IMG/VR virus record: IMGVR_UViG_3300033977_000049
Span: 1 to 64,000 of that record
Source of the DNA: a virus
Length of the DNA stretch: 64,000 nucleotides
Strand: one strand, 5' to 3'
Shown here: positions 9,875 to 40,516 of the stretch, in pieces
Position numbering within the stretch: position 1 is the first letter of the stretch
How the letters are laid out: every line of letters starts with the position of its first letter
The notes under the pieces: generated by a model
The model's database searches: none
Told to the model about the DNA's origin: nothing
Seen by the model: the letters and a program-made list of their open reading frames with translations, nothing else
Translations under genes and position numbers: made by a program

Positions 9875-10519
9875 ATGACTGTTGACCCAAATAATATACC
9901 GCTGAAAATGACACGAGAAGAATTGGAATATTGGATTCTCTTTGCTATTTGTGTTGCTAATAAACCAGCAAGCGTGACATCTCAAAAGATGAATCAATTC
10001 ATGGCGCTATCTGAAAAATCGATGCCATTTGAAAAAGTTCAAGACATGTTAGATCATAATAATCTTGATTATTGTTTGCGTTTAGTAAAATTCGGTCAAT
10101 ATAAGCGTATTAATAAAGCATTTATAGAAGCTATTAAATTAGATTTAATAAAATTAGAACAAGCTGAGCCGCCTGAAGCTCTTCAAATGCTTATTAATAT
10201 TTCGGGTATAGGTACTAAAACGGCCCGTATGATTTTAATGTATGCCTTTCCAGCGCATGCAGATCTATGGGTTCCGCTGGATACGCATATTCTTAAATTT
10301 TTACGCAAACAGGGTTATGTTACACCGGCGCACACTCCCCCTGCCGGTATTATCTATAACATTCTTCAAGATGCATTTCGCCGTGAAGCTCAAAAGCGAA
10401 ATATGACCATGCGGGAATTGGATACTAAAGTTTGGTTATCTTATGCAGAGAATAAGGGGGATCTTTCCTGGGATATACAAGCGGAGCAAAATAATGGACG
10501 AACAATTAGCCAAAACTGA
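9875..10519 (+). CDS. Endonuclease III-like DNA glycosylase/lyase (HhH-GPD)
   Basis: The helix-hairpin-helix NISGIGTKTARMIL (108-121) is followed by PLDTHIL (134-140). K115 is in the position of the catalytic lysine of endonuclease III and D136 in the position of its catalytic aspartate, so both base removal and strand cleavage are possible. The C-terminal cysteine loop for an iron-sulfur cluster is missing. It would excise damaged or modified bases. It follows the clamp gene by eight bases and overlaps the next gene. Confidence 0.8.
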   Translation: MTVDPNNIPLKMTREELEYWILFAICVANKPASVTSQKMNQFMALSEKSMPFEKVQDMLDHNNLDYCLRLVKFGQYKRINKAFIEAIKLDLIKLEQAEPPEALQMLINISGIGTKTARMILMYAFPAHADLWVPLDTHILKFLRKQGYVTPAHTPPAGIIYNILQDAFRREAQKRNMTMRELDTKVWLSYAENKGDLSWDIQAEQNNGRTISQN

Positions 10520-17877: not shown

Positions 17878-20800
17878 TTACTCTTCTTCCCAAGGCCTTG
17901 ATCCGGGGAACGTCCTAAGAATCCATTGATAAGTTGGATCTGCTTTTCTTTCAGCCGGGGTCATTTTCTTTAATGCCTTCGTCTGGTAAGCCTTTTTCTT
18001 TTGTAGCATTAAGGCCGAAAGAGATGTTTTTTCAGAACTAGTCATTAAATCCCACACTTGTAAAAAATCCGGCATGGCTAGCCTACTACATCTGAGATAT
18101 AGCCTAGCTAATGCCGGGTCCATACCTCCTGTAGTTCTAATTTCTTTTACAATACGCTTAGCTTCATCAAGCGGAATCTGCCCATCTTCAACCATTTGAT
18201 GTAAATCTTGTTGGCTTATTTCGCCCTTACGAAGTTGATCTTCATATTCCAACATTAATTGATGTTTGCGAAGGGCGGCTTCATCCACTGGACCTTCTTC
18301 AGTTCTATTAGTAGCTAATTGTATGGCCTTACTTTCAGCCTCAGATCTTAATGGAGTAGGAATAATTCCAGCACCCCTTAATCCCTGTTGCCAACTAGGA
18401 ATTTCGGCAGGCATTTCACCCGCTGCGGATTTGCCTATATATTGCAGTGAAATGGGCATAACATTACGGACCACATCCATAGTTTGCTGCCATGGGGTTA
18501 ATTTTCTGCCTAAAGCATCTCTGCCACTATATAAGCTGGTAGCCATGCGCATAGTAGGACTTGCCCGACCACGCATAAAGCCAACCGGATCATCAGCCAT
18601 ATGAAACATATCGCCCGGCAAGGTCCGCATACTCCAAACTTTTTTATGGCCTTCTTTATCTTCTGTAACTATGCCAAATGGAGCTTCTGGATGCGCCTGT
18701 CCGTTATTTACAAGCATATTGACGGCCCTAGCGGTTACCCACATTGCGCCTACAAAATAAGCCATATCGCGGCGTAATAATTTCCCCCCGGTGGGATCGA
18801 ATAATCTTTTGACTAAGCGGACTTCAGATTCCAGCCAATCTGGAGCTAGAGTAACCAAGCGGAACCAATCTTGAGTACCAACAGATCTTCCCATATCTCG
18901 GTAATTCAATCCACCAAATCTTTCATTGGTTTCGATAGCCGCTGCCCTTGCCGCTGCCCTGATTGGATCAAGGCCAGAAAAATCAGGATGGGCCTGTAAA
19001 TATCGCTCATATAATTTTGGATCTTTGGCAAATCTTTCTCGCCATTCCCCAAATAATTTTTTCCCCACCATGGCTTTAAGGCTAGGCATTAATCTTTCAA
19101 AAGTAAATTCTTGTAGCCAATTTTGCGCATCGCGTATTCCAGGCATTTTTCTTAACAATATACTTTTAGTCCCGCTAGCCGATAATCCTTCGCTAAAGTC
19201 TGATTCTGCCTGGAATCGATGGCCTAATGTCATTGACTGTTCAACTAACATAGCTAGGTCTGGATCTGTTTTTAAATCCCACTTAACTAGTCTTGGTATT
19301 ACACCACTCATAAGGGAACGCAATCCAAGTTGACTGATATGAAAGGGTGATAATGATAATAGAATTTGTTTAAATTGTGTTCCTAATCCTAATACAGCCC
19401 GGCCAACAGCGCTTCCGCGCAGCGGAGATTGTTCGAGTCCTAATCTGCGAGTCACATATTGATAAACATCGGGATGAACCCTTACATCACCCTTAACTAA
19501 GACTGGAGTTCCATCAGGCGCATAAGCAGCCCAATTCCAATGCCTAAAGGCTGGATGGTCAATGGTCATGTAATCATGTGTATTATAGAGATATATTGGA
19601 TCGCCTTTTGGACGCTGAAGCGTGGCATCTAAAGGATCTTTAGGCGGTGGATTATCTGGTACTCCGGTTAATCTTTGTGTCTTATCTTCTATGGCGGGAG
19701 GCAATGCCATTTCTTCTCCGGATATAGGCCCACCCTTTTCTTGAAGTAATATATTTTCTTTATTGGCCCTATTTATTAATTTCCTTGTAATATCTTTTAT
19801 AGTACCATGATAATGATTATATTGCCTATCCTCCCATTCTTCTAGTGGTATTTCTCTTAAAACAGATATATATATATCTGAATTATCTGGAGATGCCGGT
19901 AGTCTATTTAAAGTATCTAGAGCGGATTGATAACTAGATGTTTCAATGTTCCATTGTTTATAATCGGGTGCATTATCTGATTTCCAAGATCTAATTCTAA
20001 TATAACCCCTGTCTATTGCTTTATTGCTAGCCTCCTCTCCAGTTCCAAATCGTTCGGGTAATATATCTGGATGTTCAGATCCTTCTGGTAATTCTTTGAA
20101 TTTTCCAGATGGAGAAATCCATCCACTTCCGGTAATGGATTCTTGAATGCCCATTCTTTGAAATAGTAATTTAGGAGGTTTTGTTGGAAAATCCACAAAT
20201 CCCTTTGGTTCTTTATAGTTATACCGACCCGAATATCCTGCCGCCCTTAAAGCATTATCTACTCTATCTTGAACATATCTAGGATCGATCAATTCTACTC
20301 TGGCAAGTTCTCTGGCAATATATGCAAGATGGTTGGTATCATTATTAGCTGCTGTTTTTTGGATATTTTTTAAATCTTCGGGTCTGGATTTTTCAGCCAT
20401 TTTCAAAATATGCCTTAACGAATCTGCATAGATTTCTGGATCTTTTATAATAGCATCATTATGCCGAAGTCGCATTTGCCTAAACCATTCATTCATTGGC
20501 ATTGGATGATCCCATAGCAAGGCAGCGCCATCTTTTACAGCTTGATCCCGTTCATCCCATGCCGGAGATTCTTGAAATAAAGCTGTAGGATTAGAAGGTA
20601 TATTTTCTATAGATCGTGGAGTTGAATATGCTTCTGTATTTAATTCATTAGAAATCCTACCATGAATATTATGTTCACCCATCATGCCATATCGCAATGC
20701 TCGAATGGCATCAATAGGATCGCTAGTGATAAATGGTTTTGATTTGCCGCTGAAAATGCTGAACGATTCGGCATCTCCGAATCTTTCCTGGATGGCCCTA

Positions 20801-23800
20801 GCAATAGCATTTTTCGCGGCTATATCAAATTTCCCAGCTTCAAACCAATATCCATTTCCATTCTTGCCAAATTTTATAGCTCCCTTTTCCAAGGCGCTGT
20901 CAACTGTATCTCCCAATCCATATTTCAGCATGGATGATAATTTCAAATTTTGTTCGTGAGTGCTAAATTTTCTTATTGGAATTATATCGTTTCCAATAAT
21001 CCAACCCTGTTCATACGGCTTGCGCGTTATTGGCTTGGGGATTTCGGCTCTAAGGCGTAAGATACTGTCGGCTTTGGCTGCCCTGTTTTTTTCGAGATCG
21101 GTTCTGTAATCCTGGATGCGTGTGGCAATATCTTGCAAAGTCTTAATATCAGGTTTTTCAACTGAGCCTTCCTCGATTCTTGTGACTGCATCTTTTGCTG
21201 CGCGTTCTGCGTTCTCAATAACGCCTGGATCAATTCCTGCTCCTGTGAGGGCATCTCTTACCTCCTTATCGGTTGCTAAAAGTTCTACTAAATCTGTGGT
21301 CTGTGCTTTTAATTCTTTTTGCCATATATCCGGACTGGATTCCATTTGTTTAACAATAAAATCTAATGGCTTGCTACTCGCTGTATCCAATCCACTTAAT
21401 TCCGCTAGGGTTCTCATAAATATCCATACTGAGGCCTGCGCTTGTGATGGAGTCCAGTTTAAATCCTTGGCTATGTTTCTTAATTGAGCTTGATATAACA
21501 AATATTCATGAGGCCTGCCTTGATAATCAAACGGTTTTTGGCCCTTAAACAATTGCATCCATGTATCAATTGTAGCTCGATGGTTATTGCCCATTAAATT
21601 AGCGAAGAAGGCAGAAACTTTTGGCCCTGAAAGATCACTCCATTCCGATAGGGTTGACATAATATTGTCCGGGACTTTATATGGTCGTGGTTCTCCGGTG
21701 CGATAATCTCTATAATCATCATAATATTCAGAACCGGCTAGATCTGTTCCAATTTTTTGAGATTCAATTGCCCTGCCATGCGCTATATCAGTAATTGATT
21801 TTCTGTCCGCTGGCCTTCCTTTATCATTCCAATCTCCCCATATCTGCAAAGCCTGGATAAGGTCCGTTTTTACAGCCTTACGGGGAGAAATGGCAGCAAG
21901 TAATTTAGTAAAAATTGGAAAATCTTCCGGATTGAATATTTTTTGGAATCCAGCTAAATATCTATCATACCAGAAACGGCCTCCTGCGCCCACTAATGCG
22001 GCAGCTTTTAATTGTTCGGGCATTGCTTTATCGGCGGTATCTGCTGCCAAATATAATTTTTGATAATGCGGTGACAGTTTATTCCATTCCCATTGGTCAA
22101 TACCTGAAGGCGTGGGAGTCTGTTGTTTTCCATATCTTTCCGCTCCATGGGATTCATCAATTAAATCCTGGGCATGTTTATAAATCTCACCCATTGCATG
22201 ATGCAAGCGGGGATCTATTTCTTCGGCCAACTTTCTAGAATACAAGGCATATCTTTCCCTGGCTTCGTTGACGATTTTTTCTAAAGGCGAGGCGGATTCA
22301 TGCAAGGTGGTAATATCAATATCTGGGGCTAGTTGAAGTAAAAATTCCGCTCCTTTAGTTGCGGCAGCATGCAATTTGTCAGTACTTATAGCTGGAAGTC
22401 TACGTTTTAAAGATTCTGGCATGCTGTTAAGCATTTGGCTTGCCAATCCATAAAGCTTGCCAGCAAAATTTCTTAACATTGTAGTATCTGCCCAGCTTTT
22501 TTCTAGGGCATTTTCATCAAAATCAGCCTCGGATGCGGTGGTAAGTTTTTTGGCTAATTCAGTTCCCTCATATACTGCTGTGTTATAAATATTGGCATGG
22601 GAGATATTATCCGCATTCTTTTGCAACCAATCCACGGTACGAGCCATAGATTCGGCTGTTTCTCCCGGAAGTCCGATCATGATGTTGGGAATCAGGGCAA
22701 TATCCGCTTCCTTTAGCCTGGCGGCTGCCTTATCAATTAACTGCTCTGTAGCTGGTTTGTGCAATTCTTTCAATAGATCATTATTATAAGTTTCTACTCC
22801 GATTTCCGCAAAGCGGATACCAGATTTCTTTAACCAATCAATGGAAAATTTATTTGCTTGCGCGGCTGTGGTTTGTATAATGAATCCGCCAAAATCGGGA
22901 TTAATATCCTTGATGCGGTTATAAAGTTCCGGAAGCATTTCATAATTGGGAGCTTGCCCAAATGTTTTGTCGTTCAGATATACCAATCTCGAACCTAGCT
23001 TGCCAATAGCATCGGCCTGTTGATTAATAGCTTCTGGAGATGGCATTTCAATGCGTTTTTCTATCGTACAAAAGGCGCATTTATGTAGGCATCCAGTAGA
23101 CATGGTAAGGCGAGGAATAACATCCTGGCCAGATTCTTTGAAGTGGCGATAGTCCACGCCTTCTTTATACGGCACGCCCATGTCACGGGCTAGGCTTGCC
23201 ATATTATCATGCCATTTTACATTAGGTAAATCTTTAAAGAATTCCGCTCCACCGCTATATCCGCCAACATCTATATGGCCTTTATAGGCAGATGCTATAT
23301 TACGGATCATATCTCTATTAACATCTAGTGCTGAAAATGCTATTCTTCCATATCCGGCCTTACTCAAAAAATCTTTAGCTTCCGATAAACTACGGATCAC
23401 ATATGCATCAGCATCGGGAATAAAATTAGAAGCAAATCCCATCCACTGCGGAATCTCCCAAAAATCATCTAGGCGTTTATATCCCGGCCTGCTACCATCA
23501 TATAATTTATCATAATAACGGCTTTCCATAACCTCTTCCGGCAATCGAGGTTCGCTTGATTCTGGGTTAATTAGCTTATTGGATATTTGAACGAGCAATG
23601 TTCTATGAGCATTGCCGGTTTCTCGCGCTCCCTTGCCCGTGTCTACGGATCTACGTATCCAGGGGTTTCCGGTATCAGCAGATGCTTCCTTATAGGTATA
23701 ATTGGGATTGGAAATATCGCTTCCATCAATATTTAGAAGCTTTAGATCTGGCAACCCCTCCCTGGATCTTATTTCTTCGGCACTTAAAGGAATATTAGCT

Positions 23801-26800
23801 AAATCAATTGAATCTTTTCCTTGCAGGAGAGTATCATTTGGTCTAGCCAGCTTTCTCATTGCCTGTTTACGAAAACCAAATTCCGAATCGTTAGCTTCGG
23901 CAAGATTTCTATAAGCCAAATGTCCATAACCCTCTCGATCAACATTCCAGTCAATTCCAATAGGGCTATTAGGATGAGTTTTTAATCTAGTTAAGGCATC
24001 GGAAACTTGCTCAATTGTATTAGGATTGAGTCGCCCAAATTGAATACCTACAAATCCAGCATGTTGATCGCCTGGATTCATAATACGGATTAATCCTGCA
24101 TTAAATGCATCTTCATAGTCTGTATATCCATGCTCTGTCAACCATTCAGGATGCCCAAGGGGAACCGTTTCAGATCGGCCATCGGGAAAGATAAATGAAG
24201 ATCCCTCAACCGGGCCTAATATTATGCTAGGGCGCTTTCCTTTTATATCCACTCCAGCTTCTTCCCGAACTTTATCCTTCATTTGCAGGAGAACATTAAA
24301 TTGTTGCTGTTCAAATTTCCTGCCTTGTTCTTTTCTCATTTCCCCAAGGCGATCTTCGGGATTAGGCCATGCCGCGTCCCCTGGTTTTATACCGGTTCCA
24401 CCGGTGGAAATAAATGGATAATTTTTACCATCAAGATGTACGATTCCCTGCTGGTTATATTTTTTCCCCAGCATCATAGCTTGCCCTATATCCGGCACAG
24501 TTACACTAACTTCCATTATCCATTGTTTAGCATCTTTATCATACCAAACTCCTACGTTATTAGAAGGATCGCGCAATAATCCTATTATTTTAGGGCTAGC
24601 AATAAACCCCTGCACTTCTTTAGCAGTAGGTTTATGATCTAATTTAATTGTATATTCATTTTCGGGATAGATACTAACTGCATATTCTCCCGAAACTCCC
24701 ATATTACCGCGATATAAATTAAAGGTAGCTCCATTATTAGCCTGAACTAAATCAGAAATAGCTTCATGGGGATTTAATATTTCTTTTCTAGGTCTACCTA
24801 TGCGTCCGAATATTTCTTCAAGAAAAGGAGGTAGTGGGATCTTAAGCATTTGGGCAGATGGATTTCTTAGGCCATCATATATATCTCTCATCCACCGCTT
24901 GAACTTAGCAAATACCCCTGCCATTTCCGGTACATAAGTTCTACCGGTAATTAAATGAGATTCCAAAGCTCTTGCAGTTTTTTCTTCAGCATCAACAGTC
25001 CATGTTCCGTTTTTCACTCCAGCCCAATTTTCTAATATCCTTAAATCTTCTTCCGGTAGCCCTCTCCGGAAAACGTGGAACATTTCATGCACAAGCGTAC
25101 TAAAATCGGCCCCTTGCATAGCGCGTATAATCACCTTGCCATCATTCTGAAAATCGGCCATGCCTTTTACACCGGCCCATCTTTCTCTAGGTATGCCAGC
25201 AGCCCTTAAATGCTCTTCAGTCCCTCGTTCAAATCCTTCTAATCCTCTTTCCCTCCAATATTCTTCTAGTGACACCCCTCGCATGCGAGCAAAGGCGCGA
25301 GCCAAGGAAATTCCACCCTCCACTTGTTCATCTGTTAATCCCATTCCCCAGGCATCTTTAATTTGCTGTCTAAATTTATCTGTAACAGGTTCCAGTCCAA
25401 CCGTTTCTTGTAATAATGGCTTTTCTACTTTAGGAACCGCTTCTTCTGGGGGAGCTAATTTAGGAAATCTGACAACAATATCACCATTTTTAATGGCCTT
25501 ATCTAATGTTCCTTCTTTTCTCCTAGCTTCGATTTCCTTAGCGGCAATGCGAATATCTCTAATTCTACGTCCGTCAATCAAAAGAAATGGATTTTCACCA
25601 TTAGGCATTTCCACAACTTTTCCGGAACCGGAATAGGCTGCTATTGGCCTGCCATCTGAAGTTTTATTACCGCGATCAATCATATCGGCTACAAATTCAC
25701 GAGCCGCAATAGCCTCTCCCAAACGGGCTTTATAATTAGCCATTAATTCAATAGGATCGGTTATAAGAAGTTTTTTACCCAAAAGCATGCCCAGCACTGT
25801 ATCATCTATAATACGATGATTCAGCATGGAAATATTAGTATGAAATTCTGAATAGTTTCTTATTTCATGCACAAAACGATTAACTGCCTGATTATCGGTA
25901 TCTTTACCCCAAATACGAGTAATATAATCTTCGATAAAAGGTATGTGTATATCATGCAGGGCCGCATTTGCTAAATCCGCTGCAAATTCATTTTCAGACA
26001 ATTTTGCCAATTCCCGAATACGGGCAGTAGGATTAATTGATTTTTCATATATCTTGATTATTCTATCAATTTCTTCTGGAGTATATTTTGTTGATACTAA
26101 ACGACGCCCCGCAACCTCCAGTTTTCTTTTATCCATTTCTTCATGAATAGAAGTCAGGTCCGGCCTAATATCAGTCCGTCCCATTTCTAGCACAGGAATG
26201 TGTTCAAATCCTAAATCTTTATAGGCTTGCAAAGCATATCTTCCATTAACGCCAACAATATTACCTTCCGCATCTCGATAAATTTCAATCGGATCTATCG
26301 GCCTTCCCGCTCTAATGCGATGAATAACAGTATCAATATTCTTTTGGGCTTCTTCTCTAAGCTCTGGAGACATGCCTTGACGTATATCAAGGCTTCCAGA
26401 TGTTGCCATAAGCGTAGCATCAACAGATTTAAGAATAGGCTCTTGATTAGCCCTAGCGTTTGGATCGTAAATTTCAGCGCGGGGCCTTAATCTTTCTGTG
26501 TCTTCGGCGGTAGCCCTTCCAGCCGATTCTTTGAATAAACTTAAATCTCTCTGAAGAGCTTCTTTATCTTCTCCTCTATCCCTTAAAAGAAAGGCAGCAA
26601 ATCTATCTTCAGGATTTACATCTTTAAATGTTTTGTTTTTATCAGCCCTAAATAAATCCGCCGTTCGATTTACTTCGGTAACTTTTCTATCAAATTCACC
26701 ACCCATCTGTCGTGTTTTTTGAGCTTCCTCGCTAGGTATTAAATTTTGAATTCCAAATTTTTCTGCTAATGCTCCCACTTCTGGCCTTAAATGAGCGCGA

Positions 26801-27900
26801 GCTTGAAATCCTGCTGCCACTCCTAGTCCTATATTACCCAAAATAGAAGGTGCCATTTCAAGTGCTTGTGCCGGATCTTCAGAAAGAGCCTTTCTAAATT
26901 GAGGATATTGGTATATCGCTCCCAATATCATATTTGTACTAAAACCTAAATCAGTTAACCCCTGTATGGTTTTTGCAATAGTATCAGCCTTGGTTAATGG
27001 CATTCTAGCGCTACGAAGTATAGCGCCAAGTCCATTAATAATCAGTCCGCGATTTCTTAAATCGGAAAGATCAAGCCCTATCCTTCTTAGCCAATATCTT
27101 CCTTCTGTAAATAAGCGAGGATTAATGCCAGCCGATGAAAGAGCTTCTGGAACGCTTCTTCCTAAAGACATGGCTTTTTCAGCTATTTGTGCTCCACGGG
27201 CGATTTCTCCTATTTCATCATTTGTAAATAATCTAGCGGCAGCGGCAACTCCCTGCTTGCCTAGCGCTTCAATGGTTTCTTTACTGGCAGCACCAGCCGC
27301 TACATCTCTAAGCGCTGCCTCTCCAGCCGCCGTACCCAATCCACCTCCCCAGGTTCCTATAGTCAATGCGAGCATAGCAGGAGCGGTTTGAGAATATAGC
27401 AAATCTGTAATAAATCTACCCACACCTCCCACAAGTGCTCCAGTATATTTCCCGGCAGCCTCTCCAGCAAAAGTGCTAACAGCTTCTTTAGTGGATTCTC
27501 CGATCTCTTTAGCCCATCTTCCTCCTTCATATTTTAATACATCTGGTAATCCCAAGGCATCAACTATTTGATTGCCCTTAGGTTCCCAAATCCAATCCCA
27601 CATAGATCTGATAACGCCTTCTTTATCTCGCTGGGAAGTGGCAGGTGGGGCTATAGCCGGTTCGGTAGAAACTGGAGTTGAACTGATCGGAATTAATCCT
27701 AATTCCTCTGGGCTTTTGTAACCAATGGATTCTTTTGTTATAGAAGTTAATGGTGTTAGCCCAAGTTCTTCAGGAGATTTATAAGTAGTAGGAAATCGCC
27801 CTGCTATAGGCGGTGCTACTGGCATGGGAGATTTAGCTTTTGTTGCTACGGGAATTAATCCAAGCTCTTCCGGCGATTTGTAAATATCTTGATCTGCCAT
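17878..27900 (-). CDS. Giant multi-domain (polyvalent) virion-type protein with radical-SAM domain
   Basis: The gene encodes 3,340 residues. The N terminus has three copies of YKSPEELGL (at 7, 40 and 61). A ParB-like nuclease/binding segment lies around 505-580 (VNGRYALQ, N552). HEMFH (938-942) is a metallopeptidase signature. A radical-SAM domain has C1604-x3-C1608-x2-C1611 and a GLPGET motif near 1743. The C-terminal 500 residues are long helices with hydrophobic segments. Such proteins are usually carried in the particle and injected. I saw no T7-like RNA polymerase motifs as in N4 gp50. No Shine-Dalgarno is obvious. Confidence 0.85.
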   Translation of the reverse strand: MADQDIYKSPEELGLIPVATKAKSPMPVAPPIAGRFPTTYKSPEELGLTPLTSITKESIGYKSPEELGLIPISSTPVSTEPAIAPPATSQRDKEGVIRSMWDWIWEPKGNQIVDALGLPDVLKYEGGRWAKEIGESTKEAVSTFAGEAAGKYTGALVGGVGRFITDLLYSQTAPAMLALTIGTWGGGLGTAAGEAALRDVAAGAASKETIEALGKQGVAAAARLFTNDEIGEIARGAQIAEKAMSLGRSVPEALSSAGINPRLFTEGRYWLRRIGLDLSDLRNRGLIINGLGAILRSARMPLTKADTIAKTIQGLTDLGFSTNMILGAIYQYPQFRKALSEDPAQALEMAPSILGNIGLGVAAGFQARAHLRPEVGALAEKFGIQNLIPSEEAQKTRQMGGEFDRKVTEVNRTADLFRADKNKTFKDVNPEDRFAAFLLRDRGEDKEALQRDLSLFKESAGRATAEDTERLRPRAEIYDPNARANQEPILKSVDATLMATSGSLDIRQGMSPELREEAQKNIDTVIHRIRAGRPIDPIEIYRDAEGNIVGVNGRYALQAYKDLGFEHIPVLEMGRTDIRPDLTSIHEEMDKRKLEVAGRRLVSTKYTPEEIDRIIKIYEKSINPTARIRELAKLSENEFAADLANAALHDIHIPFIEDYITRIWGKDTDNQAVNRFVHEIRNYSEFHTNISMLNHRIIDDTVLGMLLGKKLLITDPIELMANYKARLGEAIAAREFVADMIDRGNKTSDGRPIAAYSGSGKVVEMPNGENPFLLIDGRRIRDIRIAAKEIEARRKEGTLDKAIKNGDIVVRFPKLAPPEEAVPKVEKPLLQETVGLEPVTDKFRQQIKDAWGMGLTDEQVEGGISLARAFARMRGVSLEEYWRERGLEGFERGTEEHLRAAGIPRERWAGVKGMADFQNDGKVIIRAMQGADFSTLVHEMFHVFRRGLPEEDLRILENWAGVKNGTWTVDAEEKTARALESHLITGRTYVPEMAGVFAKFKRWMRDIYDGLRNPSAQMLKIPLPPFLEEIFGRIGRPRKEILNPHEAISDLVQANNGATFNLYRGNMGVSGEYAVSIYPENEYTIKLDHKPTAKEVQGFIASPKIIGLLRDPSNNVGVWYDKDAKQWIMEVSVTVPDIGQAMMLGKKYNQQGIVHLDGKNYPFISTGGTGIKPGDAAWPNPEDRLGEMRKEQGRKFEQQQFNVLLQMKDKVREEAGVDIKGKRPSIILGPVEGSSFIFPDGRSETVPLGHPEWLTEHGYTDYEDAFNAGLIRIMNPGDQHAGFVGIQFGRLNPNTIEQVSDALTRLKTHPNSPIGIDWNVDREGYGHLAYRNLAEANDSEFGFRKQAMRKLARPNDTLLQGKDSIDLANIPLSAEEIRSREGLPDLKLLNIDGSDISNPNYTYKEASADTGNPWIRRSVDTGKGARETGNAHRTLLVQISNKLINPESSEPRLPEEVMESRYYDKLYDGSRPGYKRLDDFWEIPQWMGFASNFIPDADAYVIRSLSEAKDFLSKAGYGRIAFSALDVNRDMIRNIASAYKGHIDVGGYSGGAEFFKDLPNVKWHDNMASLARDMGVPYKEGVDYRHFKESGQDVIPRLTMSTGCLHKCAFCTIEKRIEMPSPEAINQQADAIGKLGSRLVYLNDKTFGQAPNYEMLPELYNRIKDINPDFGGFIIQTTAAQANKFSIDWLKKSGIRFAEIGVETYNNDLLKELHKPATEQLIDKAAARLKEADIALIPNIMIGLPGETAESMARTVDWLQKNADNISHANIYNTAVYEGTELAKKLTTASEADFDENALEKSWADTTMLRNFAGKLYGLASQMLNSMPESLKRRLPAISTDKLHAAATKGAEFLLQLAPDIDITTLHESASPLEKIVNEARERYALYSRKLAEEIDPRLHHAMGEIYKHAQDLIDESHGAERYGKQQTPTPSGIDQWEWNKLSPHYQKLYLAADTADKAMPEQLKAAALVGAGGRFWYDRYLAGFQKIFNPEDFPIFTKLLAAISPRKAVKTDLIQALQIWGDWNDKGRPADRKSITDIAHGRAIESQKIGTDLAGSEYYDDYRDYRTGEPRPYKVPDNIMSTLSEWSDLSGPKVSAFFANLMGNNHRATIDTWMQLFKGQKPFDYQGRPHEYLLYQAQLRNIAKDLNWTPSQAQASVWIFMRTLAELSGLDTASSKPLDFIVKQMESSPDIWQKELKAQTTDLVELLATDKEVRDALTGAGIDPGVIENAERAAKDAVTRIEEGSVEKPDIKTLQDIATRIQDYRTDLEKNRAAKADSILRLRAEIPKPITRKPYEQGWIIGNDIIPIRKFSTHEQNLKLSSMLKYGLGDTVDSALEKGAIKFGKNGNGYWFEAGKFDIAAKNAIARAIQERFGDAESFSIFSGKSKPFITSDPIDAIRALRYGMMGEHNIHGRISNELNTEAYSTPRSIENIPSNPTALFQESPAWDERDQAVKDGAALLWDHPMPMNEWFRQMRLRHNDAIIKDPEIYADSLRHILKMAEKSRPEDLKNIQKTAANNDTNHLAYIARELARVELIDPRYVQDRVDNALRAAGYSGRYNYKEPKGFVDFPTKPPKLLFQRMGIQESITGSGWISPSGKFKELPEGSEHPDILPERFGTGEEASNKAIDRGYIRIRSWKSDNAPDYKQWNIETSSYQSALDTLNRLPASPDNSDIYISVLREIPLEEWEDRQYNHYHGTIKDITRKLINRANKENILLQEKGGPISGEEMALPPAIEDKTQRLTGVPDNPPPKDPLDATLQRPKGDPIYLYNTHDYMTIDHPAFRHWNWAAYAPDGTPVLVKGDVRVHPDVYQYVTRRLGLEQSPLRGSAVGRAVLGLGTQFKQILLSLSPFHISQLGLRSLMSGVIPRLVKWDLKTDPDLAMLVEQSMTLGHRFQAESDFSEGLSASGTKSILLRKMPGIRDAQNWLQEFTFERLMPSLKAMVGKKLFGEWRERFAKDPKLYERYLQAHPDFSGLDPIRAAARAAAIETNERFGGLNYRDMGRSVGTQDWFRLVTLAPDWLESEVRLVKRLFDPTGGKLLRRDMAYFVGAMWVTARAVNMLVNNGQAHPEAPFGIVTEDKEGHKKVWSMRTLPGDMFHMADDPVGFMRGRASPTMRMATSLYSGRDALGRKLTPWQQTMDVVRNVMPISLQYIGKSAAGEMPAEIPSWQQGLRGAGIIPTPLRSEAESKAIQLATNRTEEGPVDEAALRKHQLMLEYEDQLRKGEISQQDLHQMVEDGQIPLDEAKRIVKEIRTTGGMDPALARLYLRCSRLAMPDFLQVWDLMTSSEKTSLSALMLQKKKAYQTKALKKMTPAERKADPTYQWILRTFPGSRPWEEE

Positions 27901-31201: not shown

Positions 31202-31375
31202 TTACTTCTCTTTGGGACTAACTAACTCGTGGGCAGCAGAAATTACTTTCTTTGCCAACACGTTAATTTCTTTTGCAGATACGTTAGGGAAATGGGATCT
31301 GACTATGCGCCCAACAGTAAAGTGCGATAATCTATTAATAGAATTATGGATTTCTCGCCTTTGATTTTTATTCAT
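31202..31375 (-). CDS. Small basic protein, 57 aa
   Basis: An unreported short frame fills the gap between the alanine-rich gene and the glycosyltransferase gene. It starts MNKNQRREIHNSINRLSHF, and its ATG overlaps the glycosyltransferase stop. It stops one base before the next start. It is basic and helical. Tight packing on both sides favours a real gene; function unknown. Confidence 0.55.
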   Translation of the reverse strand: MNKNQRREIHNSINRLSHFTVGRIVRSHFPNVSAKEINVLAKKVISAAHELVSPKEK

Positions 31376-32583
31376 TAAATATTTAACGCTCCCGCTGGTC
31401 TATATCCATTTTTTAAGGATACTAATTCGGCCACTACCCAGCATTCTCCGTCAAAATTTTTCTCGGTTGTAAATAAGCGAGGGGCTTGAAATCTTACCGG
31501 AGTTCCTATTTGCTGAGCTTTGATTTTATTAGTAAAATATAGAAAGCTATTTTGATTCCAAAAGCTTTTATTAGAAGAGTCTTGAAAGGCTCCTCTGCCA
31601 TCGGTTGAAGAAACTTGAATGAATGCCCATCCAGCCGGGGCTAAAACTCTATACAATTCCTTTATAACGTGAATGGGATCTTTTAATTTAGAAAATATAT
31701 CGAAAGCCCTTATAACTCCCACCGAACTATCGGCTAAGGGCCATTTCTTATTTAAATTATTATCTAGGCATGTAAATCCTTGGCGCGTGACTTTACCCAA
31801 TTCTATTTTCTTCAACCCATTAATATCTGCCCAGCGCTCTGTAAGTTGTTTAATATATTTATCATATATCGTAAAAACATTATCTTGAATCTCTGCATTA
31901 ATATCTGATTTTAGCCAAGTATTTTCTCCATGAATTCTGTAAATATATAAACCTTTATCAATTCTGAGAAATTTAGTGGCTAAATACATTCTGCATATTA
32001 AATCCAAATCATCTAATACCCTTAAATCTTTTGCATATCCACCAATAGATTCATAAACGGATTTGCGAAATGCTCTTATGTGATCTGGGGCATACCAAAT
32101 TCTGGAAACAGAATCGGGATATGGATCAAAGGCAATGAATTCATTTAATTTTATCCCATTCCATTCTATTTCTCTATATTTCCAACCATGAGTTTCATCG
32201 TACAATGCAGGCTTCGTATAGCGCGGGCCTTCTTTATTCAATTGAGCATGGACTAGATTAGAATATACAAATCCAATTTCTGGATCTTGAAAGGCTTTAT
32301 AAACTTCCTCTAAGGCGTTGGGCATTAAAAGATCATCGTGATCCATTTCCACAAATATCTCTCCTGTAGCTTTTGCACATGCCGCCGCCTTTAGCGGACC
32401 AATCATTTTAGGGGCATTCCATTCTAAAAATCCCTTAACCCTAGAATCACTAAATTGAATGGGCTGTGCCCCGTTATTATAAAGGATTATCCATTCCCAA
32501 TCCGTATAGGATTGTAATTTTAAAGATTCGTATAACTCATTCAACCATTTAGAATCATGCGTTGCAGTGTATACTGAAATCAT
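31375..32583 (-). CDS. Glycosyltransferase family 2 fused to a degenerate methyltransferase-like domain
   Basis: Residues 1-230 form a GT-A fold with VYTATHDS at the start and a DxD-type site in EMDHDDLLMP (metal and nucleotide-sugar binding). Residues about 255-402 resemble a class I methyltransferase (VTRQGFTCLD, WPLADSSVGVIRAFDIF, ELYRVLAPAGWAFIQV). The glycine-rich SAM-binding loop is shortened to ELGKV, so this half may be inactive. It starts directly at the stop of a second glycosyltransferase gene. A role in decorating the fibre is inferred from position. Confidence 0.8.
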   Translation of the reverse strand: MISVYTATHDSKWLNELYESLKLQSYTDWEWIILYNNGAQPIQFSDSRVKGFLEWNAPKMIGPLKAAACAKATGEIFVEMDHDDLLMPNALEEVYKAFQDPEIGFVYSNLVHAQLNKEGPRYTKPALYDETHGWKYREIEWNGIKLNEFIAFDPYPDSVSRIWYAPDHIRAFRKSVYESIGGYAKDLRVLDDLDLICRMYLATKFLRIDKGLYIYRIHGENTWLKSDINAEIQDNVFTIYDKYIKQLTERWADINGLKKIELGKVTRQGFTCLDNNLNKKWPLADSSVGVIRAFDIFSKLKDPIHVIKELYRVLAPAGWAFIQVSSTDGRGAFQDSSNKSFWNQNSFLYFTNKIKAQQIGTPVRFQAPRLFTTEKNFDGECWVVAELVSLKNGYRPAGALNI

Positions 32584-33111: not shown

Positions 33112-34836
33112 TTACACCACAATTAAAGTTGCTGAAGAATAACCTTGAAGATCTGCAACTTGACCGGCATTTGTAGTCTGTCCTTGTACGTATAAGTGTG
33201 CAGCGCTACTAGGAGTAACAATTGTTCCTTTAATTAAAACCCAACTATATCCGGTTGCTTGACACATTACCGCCCCGACTGATCCAAAGCCAACAGTACC
33301 CACAGCCCCTATCAATTGTGCGCTTAGAGAAGTATTTACTCCCTGTGCTCCTTGCGCTCCCATAATTAATACAGAACCACTAGACATGGCTACAGTACCC
33401 TGTATAGTAAACTGCAAGCCCTGTGCTCCAGCGGAGACGTAAATGGGTAAATATATATCTACTTGATAAGCCGTGGATGTGGCTAATGTTGGAAAGGCAA
33501 ATATATTAGATAAAGTAGTGCTTAAAGAAGCTGCCGCAGCATAGTAAGCATAAAGTGCTCCAGTTGGCCCTGTATAGCCAGTATATCCTGTATATCCAGT
33601 GAAATTACCTGCTCCAGTATAGCCCGTGTAGCCTGTATATCCAGTAGGGCCTGTATAGCCGGTATAACCTGTAAAATTTCCTGGGCCAGTATAGCCAGTA
33701 GGGCCAGTATATCCAGTATATCCAGTAAAGTTTCCCGGTCCAGTATATCCCGTTGGACCTGTGTATCCTGTATATCCAGTATATCCCGTGAAGTTGCCCG
33801 CTCCCGTATATCCAGTAGGGCCTGTATAGCCGGTATAACCTGTAAAATTTCCTGGGCCAGTATAGCCAGTAGGGCCAGTATATCCAGTATATCCAGTAAA
33901 GTTTCCCGGTCCAGTATATCCAGTTGGGCCGGTATATCCGGTATAGCCTGTATATCCTGTAAAATTTCCCGGTCCTGTGTAACCGGTGTATCCCGTTGGA
34001 CCGGTTCCGGTATATCCAGTATATCCGGTATAGCCGGTTGCACCCGCTCCTGTATAGCCTGTATATCCAGTATAACCAGTAAAATTACCAGGTCCGGTAT
34101 ATCCGGTATAGCCGGTTGCACCCGCTCCTGTATAGCCTGTATATCCAGTATAACCAGTAAAATTACCAGGTCCGGTATATCCAGTTGGCCCTGTATATCC
34201 AGTTGGTCCTATTACTCCAGCAGTACCTTGAGGTCCTGTATAGCCGGTATAACCGGTATATCCAGTTGGGCCAGTGTATCCAGTAAAAGCTCCAGATCCG
34301 GTATAACCGGTATATCCAGTTGGACCGGTATATCCCGTAAATGCCCCAGGGCCGGTATAGCCTGTATAACCCGTAGGGCCGGTATATCCAGTATAACCTG
34401 TAAATGCACCGGGGCCAGTATAGCCTGTATAGCCAGTGGGACCTGTATACCCCGTATATCCAGTAAATGCACCCGCGCCGGTATATCCAGTGGGTCCAGT
34501 ATATCCCGTATAACCAGTATAACCAGTTGGTCCAGTCGCTCCAGCCACGCCAATAGGTCCAGTATAACCTGTATAGCCGGATGGTCCGGTATATCCAGTA
34601 TATCCAGTTGGGCCAGTATAACCAGTAAAATTACCCGGACCTGTATATCCGGTATAACCAGTAGGACCCGAAAATCCACCATAGGGAAGAGAATTCCAAG
34701 CTGTTACACCATCCCCAATTTTTATTTGATGGGTATCGATTTCTAGTCCCATTTCTCCTGAATAGAGAACTGGGTTATTCGATGTCCAGTTGGAGGCGGT
34801 ATCTCTTCGGAATTGAAAGATCAAATCGAAAGACAT
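33112..34836 (-). CDS. Collagen-like fibre protein
   Basis: Residues 1-54 form a conserved phage fibre N terminus ([20 protein letters not shown], then [17 protein letters not shown]). About 55-428 is an almost unbroken Gly-X-Y array built from GYTGPTG and GYTGYTG units, with threonine in nearly every third position and tyrosine or proline in the second. Residues 430-574 form a hydrophobic, glycine-rich beta head likely to trimerise. It would be a rod-like fibre on the tail or capsid. The dense threonines suit O-glycosylation, as in the Bacillus BclA collagen-like protein. Confidence 0.85.
33555..34671 (-). repeat. Gly-X-Thr collagen-like coding repeat
   Basis: About 1.1 kb of 9-base periodic sequence encodes collagen-like triplets. 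Blocks such as [18 protein letters not shown] recur at intervals with small variations, a sign of duplication and slippage. Long open frames in other phases here are by-products of this repeat. Confidence 0.9.
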
Positions 34837-35071: not shown

Positions 35072-35410
35072 TTAATATTTATTAAAAAATCCAGACAGCC
35101 ACGGTTCTTCTTTTAAAAAAGTAGAAATTAAATTGTGCATAGAATCGTTCAAGGGATTTTGAAGCATGATCGCTGACTTGGCTGCTGTAATGGAATCGTT
35201 TTGAGTTAAAGATAGATCGCAAGCGGCGCTTGACGCATACATTTTAATCCAAAAAGAATACCAAGCATAACTTACCGCATTTAATAAAAGCGTTCCATTT
35301 AATTGATCCAGCCAATTTACTGTGTTATCATCTAAAATGGTTTCGCATTCTAATAATGTACTAGATTCGGTATCTATAAGCGTTTCACTTTCTGTCATTA
35401 AGTCGAACAT
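35072..35410 (-). CDS. Hypothetical protein, 112 aa
   Basis: An acidic, threonine/glutamate-rich N terminus is followed by helices and a final EEPWLSGFFNKY. The C-terminal pattern resembles that of the 86-residue product at 47213 (EDPSLAQFFSSY), so the two may be distant relatives. It overlaps the multi-domain glycosyltransferase gene by 13 bases. Probably a virion or assembly protein. Confidence 0.55.
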   Translation of the reverse strand: MFDLMTESETLIDTESSTLLECETILDDNTVNWLDQLNGTLLLNAVSYAWYSFWIKMYASSAACDLSLTQNDSITAAKSAIMLQNPLNDSMHNLISTFLKEEPWLSGFFNKY

Positions 35411-38400
35411 TCTAGCTTAGCCAACTCTTCTTTTAAAATCTTTCTATCTTCTTCGCGGTGCGACCATCCAAGTCGATATATATCATCCATAACTTTTGGC
35501 TCTCTGGAAAAATGATGATGAATCATTTTGGCATCTTCGCACCTATGGGCTTCATTTATTTTAATGGCCCTGGACCATAACAGGTTATCGCATCCTACAT
35601 GAAAAAACTTTTCCGAAAAGATTTCTCCGAATTTTTCAATCAAATCTTTTCTAATTAAAAAGTGCTCGCAAATATTACTTTTGTCTGGATAAAGCTCTCC
35701 GGTATTAAATGTTACAAGGCCATGATTCTTTGATGCCTTTACTGCATTATAAAGGCTCCAGGATTCAAACTCCGTATCATTAGCGGCAAAAACATAAACA
35801 TCAGAATTGTTGTTTGCGCGGTACATTCTATTAACTTTTTGAGGAACTGTAGCTTTTTTATCGTTATCTATAATAACATCAATGAGATGCTTGGGATAAT
35901 AAAGGCGATCAATTGAATCCAAGCACCGCTTTAGTCCCGATTCTCTTTCTAGGGTTGGAATTAAAATGCCCACCCTAGGAAGGAAATTGGGTGAATCAGA
36001 AGCCCAACTTTTCATAAAATGATGGAATCCTATAGTATTATCCGTTAACCGGATAGTCCCATCTTGATGATTATAGGGGAAAAAATATTCAGGGGAAAGA
36101 ATTTTAATGGTATAATCCGATGCTACCTTTCCTGGCGCTAACCATAGACATCTAGGCTCGCCATAAGCTTGAAGATATATCTTTGGGGTAATCACTTCTT
36201 GCGCTGCTTCAAAGACATATGCATCATCTCCGGAAAATTTTTCTTCTATTTCCCTAAGGCACTCTTTCATAATTGGATGATGCGGAATAGATCCCATTAT
36301 AGAATTAGCAATAAAACAATTTTCTTCTTGGCATACAAATAGCTTATATTGTAATAAATTATCAAAATTTTTTCCCGAAAGAATTTCCATATCGGCATCA
36401 CAATAAATGCCACCTTCTTTTTCTAAATACCACATGCGCAGATAATCAACCGCCTTAATCCATTTTCCCGATGCCAAAGCCTTTTCCACATAAGATATAT
36501 TTCTTGGAATGTCTTTTAATCCAATAATTTTATGCTCGTAACCTAGCACCGCTCGCTGGCTGTTAATACATTTTTCTATAAAGGGTGGCATGGTTTCATT
36601 ATTAGGTAATCCCCATATAGTAAAAATTTTCTTGGGAATTAATAATTCTAAAGAAATCATGTCTTTATATAATTCCTGCATTTCTATTAGAGGGGGTTGA
36701 TAATCTCTTGTTTGGCCTAAAAAAATAGGATCAAATGCACTTCCCGTATCTAAGCATGTAACATTATGATTGGCTTCCAATACACTAGCTATCAGTGGTT
36801 TAGCTGCAAGTCCACAGCTAAATATAAAAATAGAATTATTTTGGCAATATGGGCGTAGCTTGTCTAAAATGGCGTTGTAATTTGCAAATGCATTTCTTTC
36901 TGGAACTTCTATAAATTTAGCCTTCAACATTTCTGTAACTTTACTTAGCTTAGACGGTCCTATAAAAACCTTTATCCTGTCAAGATTGCTTAGGGTTTTA
37001 TAAAAATCATGGATGGGAGTTAGGTCTTTATCTTTTGGATGTAATAAAATATTTCCCAATTGTAAGCTATCTTTATCTCTCCAGAATGCAATGTAAGTAT
37101 CGGGCAGATTATATAAAAAGTTGAATGCTTTGCGCAGGGCTTGATTAAGTTCTAGGGAATAAGCTTGCCCATCACAATTTTCGCCCTTTACATATTCCAT
37201 GCAATGTTGTTCACCGTCGCCAAATTTGATGAAAGCAAATGGTTCGTTCGATATAAGTTTTTGTAAAAGTTCGTTTAACGATTTTGGATATTTTCCAAAT
37301 GGTTTCTCTACTATATCACTATGCCATAACAGACCATCCGGCACTTGTTCCACCTGAGATTCCTCAACAGGATTTCTTTCTTCAAAATATTGTCTATCTT
37401 GATTATATTTTGGATGTTGAGGGTCATAAGCTATAGCTTTTTGCCAGTGCTCTTTTGATTTTTCTTGCTGGCCTAAACGCCAAAATGCCCAATATAACAT
37501 TTCATGGGGATAATTTGTATAGTGCGATCCTATATTGCAATAACAATCATTAAGGGGAATTTCTAATGCAGCCGCTCCATAACATACTGTCTTTTGAGCA
37601 TCGCCCTTTTTATAAAAATATTCAGCTAGTTTAATTAAAGGTTCGCGCCTAGTTCCGTCTACCGTAAAAGATTTATGGTAAGCTTCTAGCGCCCTGTCAT
37701 CTTCACCCAAAGCGAGATAGGAATCCCCTATAAAAATAAAAGATTGCCCGCGCTCCTGTGCCCACCTATTCATTGCAACGTGTCTGTTTAATTCCTGAAT
37801 AGCAGATTTGAAACGCCCATTCCAACATAATTCTCGGCCAAAATAGTGTGCATTTCGGTCATTTTCCGGATGTAAATAACAATCTAGGGCAAGGGCTGGT
37901 AAATAATTAGAGCGATGTTCGTGAGGTGCTTGATGGTGCTCTACTAACATGATTTCTTGGGGTAAATAGGTGCATTTAGCTTGTCCAACTAATATTTCAT
38001 GTACGATTCCCTGCCAGTGCATTTTGCGCCGATCATAAGTTCTGCAATGTCGAAATTGAATAGCGGGCTGCCCATTAGGATATCGGCAGAATATAAAATG
38101 CATTTCCATCTGCTCGTATCCTTCATCAATTAATTTTTCGATAGCATCTATATTTAAGGTGTTATATTTTTCATCACAATCAACAATGGATACGATATTA
38201 TTGTTAGCCAATTCCACGGCGCGATTTCGGGCAGCAGCAAAATCAAATAATTTATCTCCGGCCTTGATAATAGATTCTTCGCCTTCAATAATAAACTTTT
38301 TATTTACCGCGTCGGCCACTTCTTCGGTAACTATGTGTTTAAATTTCTCGCCTTCTTCAAATACTCTATAGCCATAATTTCTGGCTACCTTAACAGTATC

Positions 38401-38571
38401 ATCCTTACTTCCGGTATCAACTAGGACGACTTCCCCGCCTCGCTTTAAAAATTCAGATAAAGATTTATGAAGTCTCCAGAGATTCGGTGCTTCATTGCGA
38501 GCAATTAAGCATACCGAGAAGCGAACTCCTGATTTATGGATTTTTATTGGATGCCGACTTTTCTTTTCCAT
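35398..38571 (-). CDS. Four-domain glycosyltransferase fusion, 1,057 aa
   Basis: The domains in order are: a WaaE-like GT2 domain (about 17-240, LIARNEA and VDTGSKDDT); a TPR-like helical region (about 250-400); a GT-D domain of the DUF1792 type (about 420-640, with FGDGE near 449); a GT32-type sugar transferase (about 660-860, with the DxD motif CDADMEIL near 726); and a second GT2-like domain (about 866-1057, starting GILIPTLE). DUF1792 enzymes elongate O-glycans on bacterial surface adhesins. GGAG before the ATG at 38571 supports the start. Confidence 0.85.
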   Translation of the reverse strand: MEKKSRHPIKIHKSGVRFSVCLIARNEAPNLWRLHKSLSEFLKRGGEVVLVDTGSKDDTVKVARNYGYRVFEEGEKFKHIVTEEVADAVNKKFIIEGEESIIKAGDKLFDFAAARNRAVELANNNIVSIVDCDEKYNTLNIDAIEKLIDEGYEQMEMHFIFCRYPNGQPAIQFRHCRTYDRRKMHWQGIVHEILVGQAKCTYLPQEIMLVEHHQAPHEHRSNYLPALALDCYLHPENDRNAHYFGRELCWNGRFKSAIQELNRHVAMNRWAQERGQSFIFIGDSYLALGEDDRALEAYHKSFTVDGTRREPLIKLAEYFYKKGDAQKTVCYGAAALEIPLNDCYCNIGSHYTNYPHEMLYWAFWRLGQQEKSKEHWQKAIAYDPQHPKYNQDRQYFEERNPVEESQVEQVPDGLLWHSDIVEKPFGKYPKSLNELLQKLISNEPFAFIKFGDGEQHCMEYVKGENCDGQAYSLELNQALRKAFNFLYNLPDTYIAFWRDKDSLQLGNILLHPKDKDLTPIHDFYKTLSNLDRIKVFIGPSKLSKVTEMLKAKFIEVPERNAFANYNAILDKLRPYCQNNSIFIFSCGLAAKPLIASVLEANHNVTCLDTGSAFDPIFLGQTRDYQPPLIEMQELYKDMISLELLIPKKIFTIWGLPNNETMPPFIEKCINSQRAVLGYEHKIIGLKDIPRNISYVEKALASGKWIKAVDYLRMWYLEKEGGIYCDADMEILSGKNFDNLLQYKLFVCQEENCFIANSIMGSIPHHPIMKECLREIEEKFSGDDAYVFEAAQEVITPKIYLQAYGEPRCLWLAPGKVASDYTIKILSPEYFFPYNHQDGTIRLTDNTIGFHHFMKSWASDSPNFLPRVGILIPTLERESGLKRCLDSIDRLYYPKHLIDVIIDNDKKATVPQKVNRMYRANNNSDVYVFAANDTEFESWSLYNAVKASKNHGLVTFNTGELYPDKSNICEHFLIRKDLIEKFGEIFSEKFFHVGCDNLLWSRAIKINEAHRCEDAKMIHHHFSREPKVMDDIYRLGWSHREEDRKILKEELAKLECST

Positions 38572-38991: not shown

Positions 38992-39384
38992 CTAATTTTT
39001 GGGATCGGCGGTTGCAGCAGTGGACATTTTTGAAGGACTGACCGCAGTGCTAATTTTAGCCTTTGCCATGCCCAGCCTTTCCCTTTCCGCAGTATCCAAT
39101 CGTTTATTAATATCAGTTATGGCTTGTTCTATTCGAGCCACGGCGGGAACAATTATATCTAATTTTTGTTTAAAGTCTTCATTGGCACTTTGCAATGCCG
39201 TTACTTTTTCATTAATAGATGTGGATTGTATGGCATTTCCTGACAGTTGATCCGCCACTTTGGAGCGGTCTGACCATAGCCACCCTATTAATCCAAATAG
39301 AGCACAAAGCAGCATAATAATAACCGTTGCTGCTCCCCAATTAATATGTGGCGATCTACATTCCGGATGATGGTGATTATGCAT
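38992..39384 (-). CDS. Single-pass membrane protein with histidine-rich N terminus
   Basis: MHNHHHPECRSPH is followed by one transmembrane helix (about 17-38) and a coiled coil (about 55-105). The topology is like a spanin or a membrane adaptor. The stop side is close to the GNAT gene, and the start overlaps the preceding glycosyltransferase. The role could be lysis or anchoring of the sugar-modifying enzymes at the membrane; neither is proven. Confidence 0.55.
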   Translation of the reverse strand: MHNHHHPECRSPHINWGAATVIIMLLCALFGLIGWLWSDRSKVADQLSGNAIQSTSINEKVTALQSANEDFKQKLDIIVPAVARIEQAITDINKRLDTAERERLGMAKAKISTAVSPSKMSTAATADPKN

Positions 39385-40516
39385 TTATTTTTCCTTCAGC
39401 AAAGGACCTATTACTGATAATTCTTGATGCTTCATTTTCCGGTAAAGACAAGTTTAAAATTCTATCGCATATTAGTTTGGATAGATAATATTTGCCGACC
39501 CAATAGGCAGAAATGGCAAGTTCGTCTAGTGCTCGCCATTCATATACTTCTTTTTCCACAAACAATCTATCATTTGGAATCGGTATGTTTACTGCTTGTT
39601 GGGCAAAAAGAAAAGCAGCATCATGATAATTATGACATCTATAATATCTAGCCAGGCGATATATAGGTTCGGCCCTAGTCGGACGGCGATTATAGGCCCT
39701 TAAATATGAAAATACTATTTCTTTTTCTGATAAATCAAGTTGCTCTGATACGCAGCCAATTTGATATGCCGACCACCAAGCCTCTTCATCCCAGCCGCCC
39801 ATTTCCATCCGTCGTGTATAAAGATCTATGGCTTCCTTAAAATTTCCAAGATCACGATGGGTTTGGGCTAGATAAAATATTGTACGGCAATCGTCTGGAT
39901 TTTTTCTATAAGCCCCTAAAAGAAGCCCCAAATCCCTTTCTAGCTTTTCTTTATATTGTTCCGGAGTTTTTCCGGGTCGTTCTCTATAAATTCCGGAAAG
40001 CGGATACGTGGTATAAAATCTCTGACAATCCAGATATTCATGAGTCTCACCTTTCCAAATCCAAGGTAAATTGCTTCTAATTAAAAATGGCCTTAAATAT
40101 TGCAGTGAACAATATTTTTCCAATATTTCATAGCAATCTTTTTCTAGGGGATCGGGAAGTTTGAAATTCGTGTCTGGAAATAATTTTGTGCGCCCATCCA
40201 TAAGCATAATATAATCACAATTCATTTCTTGGGCTAATTTTAGTGCTTCATTTCTATTATGCTCAAAATTTTTCCATTCGCTAGTTTTTATTGTTATCGG
40301 AAGGCCAAGATTATTACACGTTTCCTGGCAAATCTGTAAAGTATTATCTTTGCTTCCGGTATCTATAATTGCGGCATGTGTAATAAAGGGCAATGCCGAT
40401 TTAATAGTATTTTCTATGTATTGCGCCTCATCTCGCACAATCATATTCCAGCAAATTGTATTTTTAGTTAAAGCATTTGGCTCGTTAAAACGACGCCGAT
40501 CAATAACTTTTATCAT
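39377..40516 (-). CDS. Glycosyltransferase family 2 with TPR region
   Basis: Residues 20-190 are a WaaE-like GT2 domain (NMIVRDEAQYIENTI, IDTGSKDNT, EHNRNEALKLA, MLMDGRT). Residues 205-379 contain TPR-like repeats (FYLAQTHRDLGNFKEAIDLY). The N-terminal domain resembles that of the four-domain fusion at 35398, so the two probably share ancestry. TPR-fused glycosyltransferases often modify proteins rather than lipids. It lies between the LamG fibre gene and the fusion gene. Confidence 0.82.
   Translation of the reverse strand: MIKVIDRRRFNEPNALTKNTICWNMIVRDEAQYIENTIKSALPFITHAAIIDTGSKDNTLQICQETCNNLGLPITIKTSEWKNFEHNRNEALKLAQEMNCDYIMLMDGRTKLFPDTNFKLPDPLEKDCYEILEKYCSLQYLRPFLIRSNLPWIWKGETHEYLDCQRFYTTYPLSGIYRERPGKTPEQYKEKLERDLGLLLGAYRKNPDDCRTIFYLAQTHRDLGNFKEAIDLYTRRMEMGGWDEEAWWSAYQIGCVSEQLDLSEKEIVFSYLRAYNRRPTRAEPIYRLARYYRCHNYHDAAFLFAQQAVNIPIPNDRLFVEKEVYEWRALDELAISAYWVGKYYLSKLICDRILNLSLPENEASRIISNRSFAEGKINA

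Follow-up and report, generated by a model that had tools for sequence, protein, structure and literature searches.

A giant viral open reading frame (ORF), located at 17878..27900 (-) of the stretch studied here, encodes a polyvalent-type protein of 3,340 residues that contains an apparently intact radical S-adenosylmethionine (SAM) enzyme. The stretch, hereafter the window, comprises positions 1 to 64,000 (64,000 nucleotides) of IMG/VR virus record IMGVR_UViG_3300033977_000049, which is itself 87,974 bases long. We consider the evidence evenly balanced as to whether this giant is a late-operon polyvalent protein that enters the virion and leaves it with the DNA, carrying an apparently intact radical-SAM enzyme; modification of a nucleobase by that enzyme is a weaker element of the proposal. 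Our best guess is that the enzyme arrives in the particle, acts early and modifies nucleic acids, where we infer both the packaging and the substrate.

An apparently intact radical-SAM module is embedded in a giant phage protein

The giant ORF is one unbroken frame with an ATG start and no internal stops, and its assignment as a polyvalent-type protein is based on this frame, on Pfam matches and on the domains of sister giants. The residues named in a preliminary description of this DNA are all present: the cysteines C1604, C1608 and C1611 (CxxxCxxC, the predicted [4Fe-4S] ligands; 23068..23091 (-)), GLPGET at about 1743-1748 and HEMFH at 938. The module spans residues 1391-1834 (22399..23730 (-)) and was delimited by Pfam, alignment and structural modelling as a B12-binding-like Rossmann part followed by a radical-SAM barrel. 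The Pfam model PF04055 (Radical_SAM) matched residues 1600-1759 with an E value of 2.9e-14 and 54 bits (cut-off 29.5), and the same cut-off was also exceeded at loci L001 and L002. An AlphaFold model of the module, built from 13 sequences (predicted local distance difference test score, pLDDT, 84), showed a Rossmann-like part of four beta-alpha units and then the barrel. Foldseek comparison of this model with the PDB returned radical-SAM enzymes as all 25 best matches, with AprD4 at the top (E 7e-14, template modelling (TM) score 0.58) and MtaB, MgmA, MiaB and TsrM among the others, all of which have an N-terminal Rossmann domain. Both the Rossmann-like region N-terminal to the core and the radical-SAM barrel at the cysteines that had been proposed from the sequence are thus seen in the predicted structure, the latter as a partial TIM barrel. 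The refuting outcome named in the preliminary description, a predicted structure with no TIM barrel around the cysteines, was not obtained.

Scanning with the single protein detected two relatives of the module, both within other giants, while profile scans of viral contigs yielded 62 loci and, when a profile of free-standing genes was added, 74 loci, many of which overlap. The analysed set consisted of 56 modules, of which 41 lie in giant ORFs (1,113-4,599 residues), 12 are free genes (about 370-560 residues) and three are truncated. The proposal that the enzyme sits within a giant multi-enzyme phage protein alongside a zincin domain is supported, and 41 giant ORFs show this pattern. Some single ORFs with the module are very large, such as L127 2543-17467 (4,974 residues), L052 6161-19951 (4,596 residues) and L053 6158-19360 (4,400 residues). 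Mapped onto the module tree, the labels free and embedded require only two changes, although the root and some long branches of this tree are uncertain.

CxxxCxxC is kept in 56/56 modules. D1644, E1699, E1703, N1739 and G1743 are invariant in the module alignment, nearly invariant positions group at the strand ends where they are expected, and dN/dS is 0.04-0.15 in close pairs, a sign of purifying selection. That the module has degenerated into a non-catalytic radical-SAM fold with a structural role is highly improbable: the only feature that suggests this is its unusual position within a giant chain, whereas cluster and barrel motifs persist in every module over wide divergence and close pairs show the low dN/dS just given.

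The assignment of the core to the B12/MiaB-like type is backed by Pfam, NCBIfam and PDB profile matches as well as by the fold comparison. PDB sequence-profile matches included RimO (2e-9) and others, and NCBIfam matches were scattered over radical-SAM families of the B12 type and the methylthiotransferase (MTTase) type, all far under cut-off: the best, PhpK, reached 61 bits against a cut-off of 600, and MTTase models reached 43 bits against 251. Together with the Pfam match, this makes the module a true member of the radical-SAM superfamily that belongs to no named subfamily. In its N-terminal part the B12-type motifs SxL-like (S1523) and GG (G1546-G1547) are kept, while no B12-binding DxHxxG was seen in the module alignment; some B12 enzymes lack DxHxxG as well, so that the module may still use cobalamin. 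The only conserved cysteines in the 56 modules are those of CxxxCxxC, and none of the N-terminal MTTase or auxiliary-cluster cysteines is conserved.

These features bear on the idea that the injected enzyme modifies a tRNA, a ribosomal protein or another component of translation, as MiaB, MtaB and RimO do, and so protects or redirects translation. RimO, MiaB and MtaB do count among its closest relatives by profile and by fold, and a viral fold search shows tRNA methylthiotransferases of phages and giant viruses, but the missing N-terminal MTTase cysteines, the low MTTase scores and the DNA-glycosylase-like nature of the module's commonest partner (see below) make a translation target distinctly unlikely. 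Judged from alignment and model, the module is apparently an intact radical-SAM enzyme of the COG1032/B12-binding-like and MTTase-like lineage.

The module behaves as a cassette in polyvalent-type proteins

Outside the module, the giants are mostly unalignable with the window protein. A group of them (L006, L013, L027 and L029) has an N-terminal region of about 1,190 residues in common with about a dozen giants without the module, and in complete ORFs of the group the C-terminal DUF7178 region is also common to module-less giants. Between L027 and L166, the alignment stops at 1196/1082 and restarts at 1673/1130, so that exactly the module (1213-1650) is missing in L166. The variable middle of this chassis holds a histidine phosphatase, a GNAT domain and the radical-SAM module in L027/L150 (one contig), GNAT only in L155, and ART-PolyVal with DUF3293 in L157. 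The window protein itself is without that N-terminal chassis, and only its DUF7178 region and a stretch of about 130 residues align to members of the group.

Polyvalent proteins have been described as swapping domains in this cassette-like way (Iyer 2017, PMC5512222), and the window giant unites several unrelated enzymatic domains in a single chain, namely radical SAM, a zincin-like domain and DUF7178. The same set also occurs unfused, as separate neighbouring genes for radical SAM, DUF7178 and an MPTase-PolyVal zincin at L073 9998-13281. The word 'radical' is absent from the main text of Iyer 2017 (PMC5512222) and from a jumbo-phage survey citing it, and our literature search turned up no description of polyvalent proteins with a radical-SAM domain, although supplements and papers outside the searched library could hold one. 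The replacement of the module by GNAT or ART-PolyVal in sister giants identifies it as a new effector type within polyvalent proteins. Of the 'new kind of takeover tool' suggested in the preliminary description, the new effector type thus stands, whereas the class to which it belongs, the polyvalent proteins, was already known. The module represents a radical-SAM subfamily for which no curated model exists and a new effector chemistry among polyvalent proteins. Radical chemistry thus appears to be one of several interchangeable activities that phages deliver to the cell.

The company kept by the module also raises the idea that the injected enzyme acts on small molecules (nucleotides, the SAM pool or defence signals) in counter-defence or host takeover. 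Sister giants with ART, GNAT and histidine phosphatase domains speak for this, and polyvalent proteins have been read that way (PMC5512222); against it, no nucleotide-signalling partner was found beside the free-standing genes, and we regard a small-molecule target as rather unlikely.

Gene neighbourhood, zincin-like domain and N-terminal repeats suggest possible delivery with the DNA

The late region on the minus strand ends with the gene for the window giant, which tail-fibre genes precede, and giants in other loci adjoin head-closure, virion and tail-fibre genes. Its HEMFH motif (938-942) sits in a zincin-like metallopeptidase domain (residues 920-1034; 24799..25143 (-)) with 32-38% identity to giant proteins of the isolated phages AF, CP2 and JY46; HExxH is kept in all of these homologues, and a third Glu ligand was recognised by eye. 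In Pseudomonas phage AF, the gene for the zincin giant, AF_016, directly follows those for internal virion proteins A/B and a structural lysozyme. Taken together, the late operon by virion genes, the position of the AF zincin giant and the sister giants with ART-PolyVal make delivery of the giant with the DNA plausible.

The description of the phage as N4-like did not hold: the portal is T7-type (phrog_332), as is the primase-helicase, and no N4 virion RNA polymerase (vRNAP) or RNAP domain was detected in the giant. The window phage also encodes a terminase and a major-head-protein-like gene. A paper that seemed to place a radical-SAM domain in the N4 vRNAP was set aside, as it contains only a remark on HExxH.

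The N-termini of the giants often contain repeated short peptides, with z scores above 7 in six N-termini, whereas middle segments never exceeded 2.8. In the window protein, YKSPEELGL(I/T)P occurs in three copies (27697..27882 (-); z 13.7) and was not found in other proteins of the record; its copies differ at synonymous sites, and the peptide itself therefore seems to be under selection. Other examples are EYLGPL in three copies (L017 8564-8659), WSPPDEISG (L046 5912-5974) and YEGFDFGF (L048 2387-2458), with further repeats at L065 6578-6655, L055 6071-6142 and the L027 N-terminus. The repeats comprise two or three copies of a peptide that differs by lineage and were not seen in middle or most C-terminal segments. 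In L037, the last 130 residues of the truncated giant ORF, at the contig end, contain a strong internal repeat (z 25). T4 has capsid-targeting sequences, and by analogy we guess that the N-terminal repeats are candidate signals for virion targeting or packaging.

It is unlikely that the giant is instead an ordinary intracellular late protein that stays unpackaged, its radical enzyme acting only on newly made phage products. In favour of such a protein are the free versions, which lie among early or replication-region genes rather than virion genes (in the loci checked, some free radical-SAM genes adjoin PolA, Rad52 and primase genes). The giants, in contrast, adjoin head, tail and internal virion genes, their zincin fusion and ART-PolyVal kinship follow the pattern of ejected proteins, and the repeated N-terminal peptides suggest targeting. 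With giants beside virion genes and free genes in replication regions, phages can apparently obtain one activity in two ways, through delivery or through early expression.

The DUF7178 partner domain resembles DNA glycosylases

The DUF7178 domain of the window giant (residues 1957-2170; 21391..22032 (-)) was assigned by Pfam, profile and fold as a putative relative of Ogg2-like DNA glycosylase/apurinic-apyrimidinic (AP) lyases, with K2094 and D2112; the Pfam match itself covers residues 2079-2163 (29.5 bits, cut-off 27). Of the 41 module giants, 22 carry DUF7178 within the same ORF, the window's included. A DUF7178 protein of about 200 residues is also the commonest neighbour family of free radical-SAM genes (Pfam E down to 2e-38); after a second scan it was present within the fetched flank in 11/20 free-standing loci, and in L072 the stop and start codons of the two genes overlap.

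PDB profile matches of DUF7178 comprised seven N-glycosylase/DNA lyase chains, the rest being noise, and the sole PDB fold match of probability 1.00 to the DUF7178 model (pLDDT 80) was the 8-oxoguanine glycosylase/lyase Ogg2 of M. jannaschii. A conserved Lys (33/34) and Asp (34/34) lie 18 residues apart; the catalytic K120 and D138 of EndoIII are likewise 18 apart. The window also encodes a free paralogue, a separate ORF of 214 residues in the replication region (9875..10519 (+)) that belongs to an Ogg-HhH/DUF7178-like superfamily (Pfam Ogg-HhH E 9e-4, below cut-off), and some depositors label DUF7178 homologues N-glycosylase/DNA lyase. This ORF directly follows a DNA polymerase processivity-factor-like gene. 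Profile, fold, Lys/Asp pair and paralogue are each modest, but taken together these lines from sequence and modelling make it probable that DUF7178 is related to DNA glycosylases. A tie between DUF7178 and thymidine-hypermodification transferases was considered, but no supporting text was found and it is not claimed.

We propose the following course of events. The giant chain would be packaged unfolded or without its Fe-S cluster and threaded into the cell, where the zincin domain perhaps cuts it into parts. Host Fe-S machinery could then build the cluster, so that the particle would not have to preserve an oxygen-sensitive one. As infection begins, the radical enzyme may modify a nucleobase, which is most likely one in DNA, and DUF7178 might recognise, excise or exchange bases in the same DNA. 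In the fullest form of this proposal, phages inject a radical-SAM enzyme together with a DNA-glycosylase-like domain, and bases of host or phage DNA are rewritten or removed within the first minutes of infection, ahead of any phage gene expression. This would be the first virion-delivered radical enzyme, a tentative proposal that we hold with well under even confidence.

Several observations weigh against such joint action on DNA. A number of free-standing radical-SAM genes have no DUF7178 within reach, and DUF7178 occurs without radical SAM in about 12 different giants and in many marine T7-like phages; since it is frequent alone, the pair is not obligatory, and the co-occurrence may partly reflect shared chassis ancestry. 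Furthermore, each PDB profile match of DUF7178 is weak by itself (E 0.007-1.6), and the fold match to Ogg2 has an E value of 0.04 and a TM score of 0.48. Strict radical-SAM/DUF7178 pairing was rejected when scanning in the reverse direction revealed many giants that have DUF7178 but not radical SAM, leaving a frequent association only.

Other features of the window

A ParB-like segment had also been proposed in the giant; this ParB/sulfiredoxin-like candidate (residues 485-620; 26041..26448 (-)) was recognised by eye only and matched neither Pfam, including PF02195 (ParB_N), nor anything in an iterative search. The C-terminal 690 residues of the giant gave no match to isolated phages. A cellular origin was not supported, as a search of contigs from cellular genomes gave one distant match only, with 23% identity.

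Elsewhere in the window, 33112-34836 (-) encodes a collagen-like tail fibre with repeats (10 protein letters, not shown). It is surrounded by glycosyltransferase-domain ORFs at 31375-32583, 35398-38571 and 39377-40516 (-), one of which is fused to a methyltransferase-like part, and glycosylation of the virion fibre is possible. An NAD oxidoreductase of the GFO/IDH/MocA type (Pfam E 9e-25) is encoded at 5024-6022 (+), in the early region of this podovirus-like phage.

Significance and relation to known systems

To our knowledge, the injected phage effectors known so far act in protein modification (ADP-ribosylation, acetylation), nucleic-acid cutting and transcription. With a radical-SAM enzyme, C-H activation chemistry would join this set, which raises the question of how an Fe-S enzyme passes through the tail and is put together in the recipient cell. 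Small expressible proteins (about 390 residues, plus a 200-residue partner) are encoded by the free-standing genes and allow direct tests of the chemistry, and the findings on DUF7178 suggest what a domain widespread in marine T7-like phages may do.

Like MiaB, MtaB and RimO, the module has a Rossmann-like part followed by a barrel, and its beta-2 motif can be aligned with DTTSYG of RimO; it differs from them in its lack of conserved auxiliary-cluster cysteines and of a detectable TRAM domain. With AprD4 and the B12-binding-like radical-SAM enzymes (COG1032; PhpK, HpnJ, MgmA) it has in common the Rossmann-like N-domain with barrel and the SxL-like and GG motifs, whereas no DxHxxG was seen, NCBIfam scores lie far under cut-offs, and the module is embedded in giants and has its own conserved N-terminal motif, YYDxLY...DFWEIPQW. 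DUF7178 resembles the 8-oxoguanine DNA glycosylase/AP-lyases Ogg2 and AGOG in its all-helical fold, its Lys/Asp spacing of 18 and its profile and fold matches, but it is a Pfam family of unknown function, those matches are weak and its glycosylase activity is putative. Finally, the giant resembles the polyvalent proteins, including fusions of N4-like vRNAP with zincin MPTase (Iyer 2017, PMC5512222), in being a giant multi-enzyme polypeptide with a zincin-like domain, in the swapping of domains between relatives, in the ART-PolyVal and GNAT domains of its sister giants and in its virion-gene neighbourhood. It differs from them in that it has no vRNAP, in that PolyVal Pfam models gave no match on the window protein and PF18818 (zincin MPTase) none in the window genome, and in that its cargo is a radical-SAM enzyme.
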